Shown: positions 40,482-45,352 of the stretch, piece after piece
Position numbering within the stretch: position 1 is the first letter of the stretch
Layout of the letters: the number at the start of each line of letters is the position of its first letter
NCBI GenBank assembly: GCA_029865385.1
Contig: JAOUGX010000018.1
Coordinates: 1 to 49,155, forward strand
DNA length: 49,155 nucleotides
DNA from: Gammaproteobacteria bacterium
GTDB taxonomy: Bacteria > Pseudomonadota > Gammaproteobacteria > Steroidobacterales > Woeseiaceae
Direction of reading: 5' to 3'
Notes under the pieces: generated by a model
The model's input: only the letters and a program-made list of their open reading frames with translations
Databases searched by the model: none
Told to the model about the DNA's origin: nothing
Translations under genes and position numbers: made by a program

Positions 40482-41438
40482 TCAGACAAGCCGGTTGCGA
40501 TTCTCGCCCCGCTGAAATGCCAGCACGTTTTTCGCCAGTTCATTGATGGCATTCTGCCGTGCTTCGGCCGTCGCCCAGGCTATGTGCGGTGTCACGATCA
40601 GGTTGGCGCCGCTGTACGCCAGCAGCGGGTCACCATCGCTCGGGGGTTCTTTCGGCAAGACATCGATTGCCGCTGCGGCAATATCGCCATTGCTCAATGC
40701 AGCGACCAGCGCCGCCGAATCGACCAGCCCGCCGCGGGCCGTGTTGATAAGAATTGCGCTCTTCTTCATGCGCCGGAACTGTTCGGCACCGAACAAGCCG
40801 AGCGTGGAGTCGTTCAACGGACAGTGCAGGGAAATGACGTCGGCCTCGCCGAGCACTGTATCGAAGTCCGTTCGTCCGTCGTCTGCCGCCGGCTGGCCAC
40901 GGCGGCGCGAGACCATTACGCGCATGCCGAAATTCCTCGCCATGTCGCCAACGCCACGTCCGAGGACGCCGTGCCCGACGATGCCGATCGTCATTGCGGA
41001 CAACTCACGAATCGGGTGACTCAACATGCAGAAGTCCGCGGAACGCTGCCATTCGCCATTGCGTACGGCGGTATCGAACTGCCCGATGCTGTGAGTGAAA
41101 TTGAGCAATACGGCGAAAACGTGTTCGACGACAGACTGTGTGCAATAGGCGCGAATGTTGCAAACAGCGACGTTATGCTCGGCTGCGGCCGAGAGATCGA
41201 TATTGTCCGAACCGGTTGCGGTAAGGCCGATGAACCTGAGCGCTTTTGCGGCTGAGATCAAACCGCTGTCCAGGCGCACCTTGTTGGTGAGCACGAACTC
41301 CGCATCGCGTATTCGATCGAGGCGCTGCGCATCCGATGTACCGTCGAAGAACTCTATGCCGGGAAGCGCATCGCTCAGTGGCGAACGGCTGAGGCCGACG
41401 GCGCCCATGGTTGCAAAGTCGAGAAACACGGCTTTCAT
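40482..41438 (-). CDS. D-2-hydroxyacid dehydrogenase (hydroxypyruvate/glycerate type)
   Basis: 318 residues. NAD-binding [17 protein letters not shown] (about 154-170) with the catalytic triad in context: Arg of NTARGGLVD, Glu of [12 protein letters not shown] and His of [13 protein letters not shown]-terminal [36 protein letters not shown] is typical of glycerate dehydrogenase/hydroxypyruvate reductase (HprA-like). The exact substrate cannot be fixed from sequence. It stands alone, divergent from the ycgN-like gene. Confidence 0.9.
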
Positions 41439-41478
41439 ATCGCCAAGCAGCTATCCTATTGAGCGGAGAGTGCGAACG

Positions 41479-41928
41479 ATGACCGATGAATTCTGGAAAC
41501 GCAAATCGCTGGCGGCGATGAGCCCGGCTGAATGGGAATCCCTTTGCGACGGTTGCGCGTTGTGCTGCCTGCAGAAAGTCGAGGATGCCGATAGCGGCGA
41601 TGTCTATTTCACCGACATCGCTTGCAGGCTTCTGGACCTCGGAACCTGCCGCTGCACGGACTACAGCAATCGAGCCAGGAAAGTCGCAGAGTGCCTGGTA
41701 CTGAAAGCGGACCAGCCGGAAACGTTCCGCTGGCTGCCGGACAGTTGTGCATACCGGCTACTGGCCTTCGGCGAGGACCTGCCGGAGTGGCATCCATTGG
41801 TCAGCGGCGACAGGGAAAGTGTCCACAAGGCCGACATTTCCGTTCGCGGCAAGGTGCGCTCGGAATCAGAAACCACGGAATGGACCGTCATGCGTCAACT
41901 CAGCAGTCGAAAAGCGGTGCCCGAATGA
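41479..41928 (+). CDS. ycgN: YcgN family (UPF0260) cysteine-cluster protein
   Basis: 149 residues from the ATG at 41479, which has GGAGAG about eight bases upstream. The N-terminal CDGCALCC cluster (C23, C26, C29, C30) and further cysteines C49, C57, C59 and C72 fit the YkgJ/UPF0260 family, thought to bind iron or zinc. Similarity to E. coli YcgN runs the whole length ([46 protein letters not shown]). The function is unknown. It overlaps the next gene by 4 nt (ATGA), so the flavoprotein below is its probable partner. Confidence 0.92.
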
Positions 41929-42602
41929 AGAAAACATTCCCGTTCATTCCATTGGATAATTATCGTGAATACCCGCTGGAGGAAATGCGCGAACGATTGG
42001 CCGATTTCTACGCAGACGTCAGCCGCCGGCGGACCGTGCGTGAGTTTTCTCCACGACCGGTTCCGATAGACATCATCGAAACCGCGCTGCGCATAGCTGG
42101 AACCGCACCCAGCGGTGCGAATCTTCAGCCATGGCACTTCGTCGTGGTCAGCGGGGCAAAGACCAAGCGGCGGATCCGCGAAGCGGCGGAAGCCGAAGAG
42201 CGGGAGTTTTACCAACACCGGGCTTCAGCGGAATGGCTGGCCGCACTGGAACCGCTGGGCACGGACTCGGAAAAGCCGTTCCTGGAAACTGCCCCGTACC
42301 TGATCGCCGTGTTCCTGCAGAAGTACTCGAAACTGCCGGACGGCCAGAAGGTAAAGCACTATTACCCATCCGAATCGACCGGCCTGGCGACCGGCATGCT
42401 GATTACAGCCCTGCATCGCGCCGGTCTGGCCTGCCTGACTCACACGCCGAGCCCGATGAAATTCCTGAACGAGATCCTCGATCGGCCGCTGACCGAAAGA
42501 CCCTTCCTGCTGCTGGTAACGGGGTACCCGGCCGACGGTGCAACCGTGCCGGACATTCACAGGAAGTCGCTGCGGGACTACGTGAGCTTCGTGACGGATT
42601 GA
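41925..42602 (+). CDS. Nitroreductase-fold flavoprotein, iodotyrosine deiodinase-like
   Basis: 225 residues. FMN-binding segments are [14 protein letters not shown] (35-48), [16 protein letters not shown] (60-75) and [16 protein letters not shown] (153-168). The substrate lid carries E92, Y96 and K117. In human iodotyrosine deiodinase the zwitterion-binding residues are E157, Y161 and K182: the same 4 and 21 residue spacings, within similar context (K..FLETAP here, K..YLDTAP there). The C-terminal [15 protein letters not shown] also parallels that enzyme. The prediction is a flavin-dependent halotyrosine dehalogenase; the native bacterial substrate is unknown. It is co-translated with ycgN. 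Confidence 0.85.
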
Positions 42603-42622: not shown

Positions 42623-45352
42623 TCAGCCGGTATTCTGCAGTCCCTGGGCAATGCCATTGACGCTCGCCAGCAGCGCCTCGAAAAGTTCGGCATCCTCGCA
42701 AGCAGATTCTCGCCAGCGTGCCAGCAGGTCGATCTGCATGAGGCTCATCGGGTCCACGTACGGGTTGCGCAGCATGATCGCCCGCTGCAGTGTTACATCC
42801 GTTTCCAGCAAGGACTCGTGATCAGAGTATTCGAGAACGAGTTCGCATGTGAGTTCGAACTCCTGCGCGATGATCGGCCAGAATTGCTCGTGCAACGGGC
42901 CTGCAAGTTGTGAGTACAGCCTTGCGATCTCGAGATCGGCTTTGGCGAGAACTGCTTCGGAATCGGCCGTAATCGAGCGCATGAAATACCACTCGCGCGA
43001 CATCTCCCGCAGACCATCCTCGTCGAATTGCTGCAATGCGGCCTTCAGCCCCGAGCCCAGCCCGAACCATCCGGGAAACATCGAGCGGCACTGCGTCCAC
43101 GAGAAAACCCAGGGTATGGCCCTTAAATCCTCGACGCCCGCGCCGCTGCGCCGCGCCGACGGCCGCGAACCGATGCGCATGCGCTCGATCAGGTCTATCG
43201 GCGTTGCCTTGCGGAAATATTCGTAAAAGCCCGGAGTCTTGTAAACGAGATCGCGGTATTTGCGGCGGCTGACATCGGCAATGACCTGCATCGTGTCGTG
43301 CCATGCGGGCTCGTCGGAACCGCGATGCTGCGGCATGGCGGTCGCCAGCGCCACCGACGCGGTCGCCTGCTCCAGCGTTCGCAAGGCAATGCCGCGCAAA
43401 CCGTACTTCTCATTGATGATTTCGCCCTGTTCGGTAACACGCAGCCTGCCGTTCACCGTCCCCGGCGGTGAGCCCATGACTGCAGCATGCGTCGAGCCGC
43501 CGCCACGACTGATGGTGCCGCCACGACCATGAAAGAGATTCAACTCGACATTGTGCTGTGCAACCGTCTCGACCAGTTCGATCTGCGCGTTCTGCAGCGC
43601 CCAGCGCGCGGACACCAGCCCCGAATCCTTGTTGCTGTCGGAGTAACCGATCATTACGGTCTGCTTGTCACCACGCAATGCGAGGTGTTCGCGATAAAGT
43701 TCGTTTGCCAGAAGTTCCTCGAGGATCGCAGGTCCATTCTTTAGATCGTCAACCGTCTCAAGCAGTGGCGCGATATCCAGTGGCACTTCGTCGCGGCGAT
43801 TGTGCAGCTCGCTCCATTGTGCAAGAAGCAATACCGACAGAACGTCGTCCGCGCCCTGTGTCATGCTGATGATGAACGGCCCGATAGCCGGCAGCCCGTA
43901 CTTGCGCCGACAGAACGCGATGGCCTGGAATACGGCCAGGGTTTTTCGCACACCGATGCTGTGCCGGCCGGTCGGCGAGAAGCGTGTCTTGATTGCCTCG
44001 ACGATGCGCTCGGCCCGGTCTTCCGCTGCCCATTCGAGCCAGTCCTCGATGCCAAGGCATTCGCCGATGACCTCTCTGTGCACCAGCGCATCCTGACGCA
44101 CATCCAGCGTTACGAGGTGAAATCCGAAAGTAGCAATCCGTCGCAGCAGACGCCGCACGGCGAACAGGCCAGCGTGCTTGCCCTTGTTATTCACCAGGCT
44201 CTTTTCGACCAGTGAAACGTCCGACTCGAACTGCGCCGCCGATTCGTATGGATACGCGTCGTCATCATAAGTGGCCTGCAGTCTCGCCTGTATCAGCCGC
44301 AGGAATACGCGGTAGGGCATATCCCTGTGCCGCGCCGGTACGGCGTGATACGCATTGCGGAACACGCCCCGGTATTCCTCGATCCGTTGCATGATTGAGT
44401 CGTCGACGACTACGCGCCCGGTCGATTGGCTCAACTTGGCGGACAGGCTGCCGCACTCCCGGAAGTAGCGATCGAGAATCAGCGATCGCTGGCGGGCCAT
44501 TGTCGAGCGAATCGTTTTTGCGTTGACGTTCGGATTGCCATCCATATCACCGCCGACCCAGGAGGCGAATTTCACCATCGGGGGAATCTTCAGGCCTCTT
44601 GCTTCTTCGCCGTAAATGCGCACGGCCGCATTTTCGAGATCCTCGTAAAACGGTGGCATCGCCCTGTACAGAACGTCGGTGACGAAGAACAGCACGTGTT
44701 CGAGTTCGTCTGCGACGGTCATCTGCTCCGACGGGTGCTCGTCCGTCTGCCAGCCGGTTGTGACTTCGAGTTTGATGTTTTCCAGGCAGGCGTTGCGCTC
44801 CTGTGCCGACATGGTCGGGTCGAGCATGTCGATGAGGCGGCGCACAATATTCTGTTCCTTGCGCAGAATCGTGCGCCGGGTCGGCTCGGTAGGGTGCGCT
44901 GTGAACACCGGCTCGATGCTTATGTCGTCCAGCAGGTCCTGCAACGCCGGCAGATCGACACCGGCTGCCTTGAGTCTGACGAGAGATTCCTCCAGGCCGC
45001 CGGGCTGGTAGTTACCCTCGCCCTGCAGGTATTCGAGTCGGCGGCGAATCCGATGAACTTTCTCTGCCGTATTCACCATCTGGAAATAGGTGGAGAACGC
45101 GCGGATAACCTCGATAGCCAGTTCGAGGTCCAGGTTCTTGATCAGTCCAGCGAGTTCCTCGCCGGTTTTTTCATTTCCTTCGCGGCGCCGGATCGCTCGT
45201 TGTCGCGCAGTCTCGACGAAGTCGAACAGCGCATCGCCACCTTGTTCGCGAATCAGCTCGCCGACCATCGTGCCCAGGGTGCGCACGTCCTGGCGCAGCG
45301 CCTGGTCCTTGTTCTCAAACGTGATGTCCTGCCTTCGCAGTTTCTTGTACAC
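42623..45352 (-). CDS. ppc: Phosphoenolpyruvate carboxylase
   Basis: 909 residues. Active-site blocks: VFTAHPTEPTRRTIL (catalytic His, about 153-167), GGDMDGNPNV, GYSDSNKDSGLVSARW, FHGRGGTISRGGG, and the universal C-terminal QNTG. The enzyme makes oxaloacetate from PEP and bicarbonate and feeds the citrate synthase encoded at 19.7 kb. It converges on the deiodinase-like gene with only 20 bp between stops, and lies 23 bp upstream of yajQ in the same direction. Confidence 0.98.
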   Translation of the reverse strand: MYKKLRRQDITFENKDQALRQDVRTLGTMVGELIREQGGDALFDFVETARQRAIRRREGNEKTGEELAGLIKNLDLELAIEVIRAFSTYFQMVNTAEKVHRIRRRLEYLQGEGNYQPGGLEESLVRLKAAGVDLPALQDLLDDISIEPVFTAHPTEPTRRTILRKEQNIVRRLIDMLDPTMSAQERNACLENIKLEVTTGWQTDEHPSEQMTVADELEHVLFFVTDVLYRAMPPFYEDLENAAVRIYGEEARGLKIPPMVKFASWVGGDMDGNPNVNAKTIRSTMARQRSLILDRYFRECGSLSAKLSQSTGRVVVDDSIMQRIEEYRGVFRNAYHAVPARHRDMPYRVFLRLIQARLQATYDDDAYPYESAAQFESDVSLVEKSLVNNKGKHAGLFAVRRLLRRIATFGFHLVTLDVRQDALVHREVIGECLGIEDWLEWAAEDRAERIVEAIKTRFSPTGRHSIGVRKTLAVFQAIAFCRRKYGLPAIGPFIISMTQGADDVLSVLLLAQWSELHNRRDEVPLDIAPLLETVDDLKNGPAILEELLANELYREHLALRGDKQTVMIGYSDSNKDSGLVSARWALQNAQIELVETVAQHNVELNLFHGRGGTISRGGGSTHAAVMGSPPGTVNGRLRVTEQGEIINEKYGLRGIALRTLEQATASVALATAMPQHRGSDEPAWHDTMQVIADVSRRKYRDLVYKTPGFYEYFRKATPIDLIERMRIGSRPSARRSGAGVEDLRAIPWVFSWTQCRSMFPGWFGLGSGLKAALQQFDEDGLREMSREWYFMRSITADSEAVLAKADLEIARLYSQLAGPLHEQFWPIIAQEFELTCELVLEYSDHESLLETDVTLQRAIMLRNPYVDPMSLMQIDLLARWRESACEDAELFEALLASVNGIAQGLQNTG

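Follow-up and report, generated by a model that had tools for sequence, protein, structure and literature searches.

An iodotyrosine deiodinase-type flavoprotein encoded directly behind ycgN in a gammaproteobacterium, and its retention in relatives that have lost ycgN

The window, that is, the whole stretch of 49,155 nucleotides analysed here, is contig 67 of a gammaproteobacterial source genome (Woeseiaceae; 3.9 Mb in 198 contigs). Two genes on its forward strand are considered in this work: ycgN (41479..41928), encoding a cysteine-cluster protein of 149 amino acids, and the gene for a putative FMN enzyme of the iodotyrosine deiodinase (IYD) type with 225 amino acids (41925..42602). The stop of ycgN and the start of the IYD gene share an ATGA (41925..41928, forward strand), an overlap that had been noted and that the coordinates of the open reading frames confirm. 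To the left, a divergent D-2-hydroxyacid dehydrogenase gene on the reverse strand (40482..41438; Pfam PF02826 and PF00389) forms the edge of a conserved block, whose right edge is a large convergent open reading frame (42623..45352, reverse strand), named PEP carboxylase (PEPC) by inspection only. The starts of the dehydrogenase gene and ycgN are separated by a 40-bp gap (41439..41478), where the promoter of the operon would lie if transcription began immediately upstream of ycgN. The promoter scan found no sigma-70-like match in this gap, and the accompanying scan for terminator-like sites gave two against 1.4 expected. The gap is comparably short in many relatives and reaches about 120 bp in a few.

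Comparison of the 225-residue enzyme with the PDB by phmmer showed the IYD of Haliscomenobacter hydrossis as its best solved relative (5ko7, E = 7.6e-73). Mouse and human IYDs came next (E = 1.6e-47 to 4.8e-45; human 4ttb, 1.1e-45) and then the IYD 6pz0 (1e-24), while the first nitroreductase that is not an IYD was found only at 6e-11. With 117 of 213 positions (54.9%) identical to the crystallised H. hydrossis enzyme, 88 of 210 (41.9%) to the human one and 42.7% to that of mouse, the protein is not of the generic nitroreductase type that the original prediction had otherwise assigned to it. Its fold is nevertheless that of the nitroreductases according to Pfam (PF00881, 80.9 bits). The NCBIfam search gave no IYD model among its matches, the top one being BluB; this identity was rejected, as TIGR02476 reached 55.6 bits against a cut-off of 150. 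Moreover, in a phylogenetic tree of 72 sequences, five paralogues with very long branches were split off by one branch (support 89, not starred), and the known IYDs were placed among the rest.

Concerning the active site, the alignment showed that E92 (GAG, 42198-42200), Y96 (TAC, 42210-42212) and K117 (AAG, 42273-42275), which together form the lid triad (42198..42275, forward strand), fall on the E, Y and K of the human, mouse and H. hydrossis IYDs with equal spacings of 4 and 21. This bears out the proposed match to human E157/Y161/K182 in both identity and spacing. The human numbers were set by naming the aligned glutamate 157, as had been done before, and they agree with a cross-check in which residue 5 of the structural model corresponds to residue 71 of 4ttc, plus a one-residue alignment gap. 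Furthermore, T174 (codon 42444..42446, forward strand) is the equivalent of human T239; the roles of the lid triad and of T239, which lies near the flavin, are presumably those known from the human enzyme. A loss of the triad in close orthologues had been named as evidence against the prediction and was not found: E92, Y96, K117 and T174 are all present in 110/110 distinct relatives that reach these columns (111 rows, identical proteins counted once, with L021 set aside for an in-frame TGA that cuts it short; L121, at a contig end, and L130, a remnant, were also dropped). Among 18 further members of the nitroreductase family from the same order (20 loci taken, two of which, L173 and L178, yielded nothing usable), none has the full triad; E and Y occur together in three, K alone in one other, and a threonine at the T174 column in one.

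Apart from these counts, an in-frame TGA after 34 codons of the IYD gene was observed at L021 (genome G035) and L049, the remaining frame being well conserved. It may represent a pseudogene or a sequence error, and both loci may belong to one genome.

The AlphaFold2 monomer model of the enzyme (pLDDT 93.7, pTM 0.89) was used for the structural check that had been suggested, and IYD structures were the best fits to it. The top 25 rows of the Foldseek search are all IYD chains, led by 5ko8, the H. hydrossis IYD with iodotyrosine (E = 4.6e-28, TM 0.94), and nitroreductases other than IYDs begin at rank 26 (E = 1.4e-12). With VIA-align, human IYD with iodotyrosine (4ttc) gave Z 28.2 and 1.2 Å over 219 residues, compared with Z 19.3 for BluB; the rmsd to 5ko8 was 1.1 Å over 218 residues. 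Sequence, active-site residues and fold all support the IYD-like reading, and the membership of the flavoprotein in the IYD family is well supported. Bacterial IYDs were known beforehand, one having been publicly recorded in PDB titles since 2017, and the window enzyme adds one to this known family. No paper on a bacterial IYD could be recognised by its title among the literature matches listed, and one of the references given in PMC8076288 is a 2017 thesis on the H. hydrossis enzyme.

IYDs are homodimers that hold the flavin at the interface. From family likeness, we infer dimerisation, FMN binding, substrate and catalysis for the window enzyme as follows. The homodimer would bind FMN at the dimer interface, and a 3-halotyrosine would close the lid over the flavin through E92, Y96 and K117. 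The hydroxyl group of T174 could adjust the flavin to single-electron chemistry, and loss of the halogen as halide would yield tyrosine. Turnover of halotyrosine by this enzyme is likely.

The upstream product had been named a YcgN cysteine-cluster protein, and the identification was confirmed by NF003501 (208 bits, cut-off 167), together with NF003507 (186.7 bits, cut-off 170) and Pfam PF03692 (32.3 bits, cut-off 23); in the remaining nine NCBIfam YcgN models the protein stays below the cut-off. Eight of its cysteines (C23, C26, C29, C30, C49, C59, C72 and C90) are invariant in an alignment of 54 sequences, the first four making up a C-x2-C-x2-CC motif (41545..41568, forward strand). Sequence comparison of YcgN with the PDB gave no match up to E = 10, and its model (pLDDT 89.4) gave a single meaningless Foldseek match (E = 5.9). 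A similar motif in FliB, CX4CX3CC, is described in PMC8598068 as carrying a [4Fe-4S] cluster, and by analogy YcgN could carry an iron-sulfur cluster. Outside the window's family and within the same class, the 55 neighbours of ycgN at 28 loci contained 89 Pfam families, the commonest being YcgL (three), and no recurrent neighbour was found at those loci. The literature search found no paper naming YcgN together with a nitroreductase. Some literature uses the name YcgN for a different gene of B. subtilis.

The conservation of the gene pair was analysed in 99 relatives, many of them with incomplete genomes, which were searched with both proteins (ycgN at E <= 1e-15; all IYD matches at E <= 3e-84). 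A clear IYD was present in 43 and ycgN in 71; 37 had both, 34 ycgN alone, six IYD alone and 22 neither. In 33 of the 37 genomes of the order with both genes, distributed over five families, ycgN lies directly before the IYD gene on the same strand, the matched stretches being no more than 110 nt apart in 32 of them (611 in G017); in the other four the genes are on different contigs. Of these, G023 and G053 carry the IYD gene elsewhere in the genome and the block without it, G059 lacks ycgN over the 838 bases upstream of IYD, and in G093 contig ends appear to have split the pair. A larger set of 83 loci with both genes, with gene starts picked by script, gave gaps of -17 to +38 nt in 73 and of -17 to +126 nt in 79, the outliers including L004 and L055 (584 nt) and L057 (2041 nt); in this set L024 and L080 hold only a ycgN remnant, and loci overlapping in genomes were left unmerged, as they were in the fusion count. 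At L007 (1492-2598, reverse strand; genome G011), ycgN runs into IYD without a stop, giving a single frame of 368 codons, and none of four other loci checked (G380, G411, G402 and G386) is fused. The L007 fusion keeps an internal GTG behind a G-rich stretch, and therefore the IYD may still start there; a faulty assembly could also mimic such a fusion.

Since ycgN sits just upstream of the IYD gene and overlaps it, one message for both is probable, and the adjacency in 33/37 genomes, together with the tight gaps over the 83 loci, makes an operon likely in the window's order; the two genes are thus probably co-transcribed. Fusion and tight spacing also argue for more than chance neighbours. Adjacency across genomes, which had been suggested as a check, is found in the window's order but not outside it: in none of the seven class genomes with both genes are they adjacent. 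In six they lie on different contigs, and in G286 some 49 kb separate them.

The pair has also been separated by natural deletions. The nearest relative, G001, belongs to the same genus and has an 85% identical IYD; its dehydrogenase and IYD genes start about 50 bases apart and ycgN is gone; the deletion site is well inside the contig, and no ycgN was found elsewhere in this genome at E <= 1e-15 (67% complete). As read by eye, an internal deletion in G014 (L024; 82% complete) leaves only the two ends of ycgN, without the cysteine region, a C-terminal scrap remains in G068 (L133; 96% complete), and ycgN is gone at L044. G070 and G083, which are 99-100% complete and have the IYD, gave no ycgN match at E <= 1e-15, nor did G014 and G068, and in G057, the sixth genome with IYD alone, the IYD lies at a contig end. 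Among 17 genomes picked for the absence of ycgN beside IYD, 14 showed no ycgN at E <= 1e-8; in this group L105 has only 109 bases before IYD, and G417 is probably the same as G014 (identical IYD). The triad and T174 are intact at L002, L024, L044, L066, L133, L134 and L135. The comparison of L133, where ycgN was lost, with L128 gave dN 0.034 and dS 0.31 for IYD, and that of the window with L002 gave dN 0.10 and dS 1.8, the latter near saturation. Nonsynonymous change in IYD stays low where ycgN has been lost.

Regarding the surroundings, the order dehydrogenase - ycgN - (IYD) - PEPC - YajQ recurs in many genomes with and without IYD (the PEPC and YajQ-like genes being named by inspection), and IYD appears to be an optional gene within an old block. 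The reverse loss was seen in G050 (L130), where an IYD scrap of about residues 179-215 lies right behind ycgN. Insertions are common behind IYD, where the distance to the next gene ranges from about 0 to 3.9 kb, but in the space separating it from ycgN they are rare (2/47 loci with ycgN). The 24 IYD sequences labelled as block copies form no single clade in the free tree and in 0/200 bootstrap trees, and a single origin is not rejected (p-AU 0.293); L063 and L066, which branch within the clade of the window, carry this label in the test although none of the window's neighbours is beside them. In both trees most of the deep forks are poorly resolved, and some rows of the 72-sequence tree marked as having no adjacent ycgN are a contig end (L087) or ycgN deletions (L002, L024 and L044). 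The idea that IYD came to lie behind ycgN several times independently, which would have been a strong argument for function, was discarded, one origin being tenable at this p-AU value.

In the window's family, 69/107 genomes have a match to the IYD at E <= 1e-60, and in a sample of the class 13/274 do at E <= 1e-40, including two from that family. The nearest relatives come from records of Woeseiaceae, Gammaproteobacteria, Proteobacteria and Chromatiales; among the best 80 of at least 547 matches, relatives with 63-71% identity are in records of Acidobacteria, Alphaproteobacteria, Anaerolineales, Caldilineaceae and Ignavibacteriaceae, among others. Many bacteria of the window's group live in marine sediment, and the frequency of IYD in this family suggests that halotyrosine breakdown could be a wider bacterial trade. 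The IYDs of L054, L060 and L063 (G418-G420) are 72-76% identical to that of the window, with no block genes in the stretch, and ycgN in these genomes is only 55-56% identical and lies outside the IYD stretch; this looks like horizontal transfer of IYD.

No halotyrosine- or iodine-linked gene was found to recur beside IYD among 64 neighbours at 35 loci, nearly all outside the block (L087 and L101 have block-like contexts); 75 Pfam families were present, the 25 commonest of which were listed, and none exceeded 4/64. Of 77 neighbours, 13 were left out of this count, namely a single neighbour from each of L094, L096 and L101 and all ten from L131-L135. The commonest family, carbamoyltransferase (4/64), is probably, from its length, the 309-residue neighbour at four alphaproteobacterial or Rhodospirillales loci.

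Taken as a whole, we consider it highly probable that the flavoprotein is a bacterial IYD acting on halotyrosine, as predicted, with ycgN probably co-transcribed and YcgN not needed for IYD to be retained. The coupling to YcgN in the original prediction holds as an operon-like arrangement in one order and fails as a needed partnership, because several lineages have lost ycgN by deletion while their IYD stayed intact; G001, G014, G068, G070 and G083 keep IYD without it. YcgN as a needed partner was thus rejected: it is not required for IYD to be kept, and if it helps IYD, it does so dispensably. It could still be thought that YcgN serves this IYD specifically, as an iron-sulfur electron donor or in its maturation, and that the two work as a unit at least in genomes with both. 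To our knowledge, the physiological reductant of IYD is unsettled, and the same-strand adjacency in five families, the close spacing with the in-frame fusion, the eight invariant cysteines and the likeness to the FliB motif speak for such a partner. Against these stand the ycgN deletions, the 34/71 ycgN-bearing genomes with no clear IYD, the lack of adjacency outside the order and the GTG kept in the fusion, so that this partnership is very doubtful. Its mechanistic form, in which YcgN of the window's order would feed electrons to IYD as an iron-sulfur protein, with the frame of G011 as a natural fusion and another reductant used by the lineages without ycgN, is equally improbable. A better account of the adjacency, compatible with the preferred reading and somewhat favoured by us, is that the genes are neighbours by descent, IYD having landed behind ycgN in the ancestor of the order and stayed in the block. 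The recurrence of the block with and without IYD and the single origin not rejected by the AU test fit this history; the failure of block copies to form one clade in any bootstrap tree speaks against it, and so does the contrast between frequent insertions behind IYD and rare ones before it, which fits an operon under selection and argues against a purely passive block.

As for the substrate, fold and lid do not fix it, and hence the enzyme may natively act on a nitro compound or on some other halophenol. The nitroreductase superfamily is broad in substrate, and the enzyme could be a lid-bearing nitroreductase with a different physiological substrate (halophenol, nitroaromatic or tyrosine-like metabolite), halotyrosine turnover being a side activity. 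This would agree with the lack of a recurrent neighbour pointing to halotyrosine in other lineages and with the thesis on the H. hydrossis IYD, which by its title aims at iodophenols. It is nonetheless unlikely, given that the IYD-defining residues are invariant and that the best fold matches are IYDs, many of them with bound halotyrosine. The window enzyme places a structurally known family in a gammaproteobacterial group where it is common, and the natural deletions show that taking an ATGA overlap as a sign of partnership, tempting as it is, does not hold in general.

Among known systems, the H. hydrossis IYD (5ko7, 5ko8 and 5krd) is like the window enzyme in its E, Y, K and T residues, and both are bacterial, although we take H. 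hydrossis to belong to a phylum other than that of the window bacterium. Vertebrate IYD/DEHAL1 (4ttb, 4ttc, 3gb5 and 3gfd) shares the equivalents of the triad and of T239. Mammalian IYD is described in PMC3930498 as a transmembrane protein that recycles iodide, whereas the 225 residues of the window enzyme, as read, contain no membrane anchor. The shorter 6pz0, an IYD by its title, is 34% identical to the window enzyme (185 residues aligned, Z 24.0). BluB, the 5,6-dimethylbenzimidazole synthase, has the nitroreductase-like FMN fold in common with it, but the window enzyme is below the BluB cut-off and fits BluB with the lower Z. The neighbouring protein, in turn, has its closest known system in the YcgN family (NF003501, PRK05170), of whose models it passes two cut-offs.
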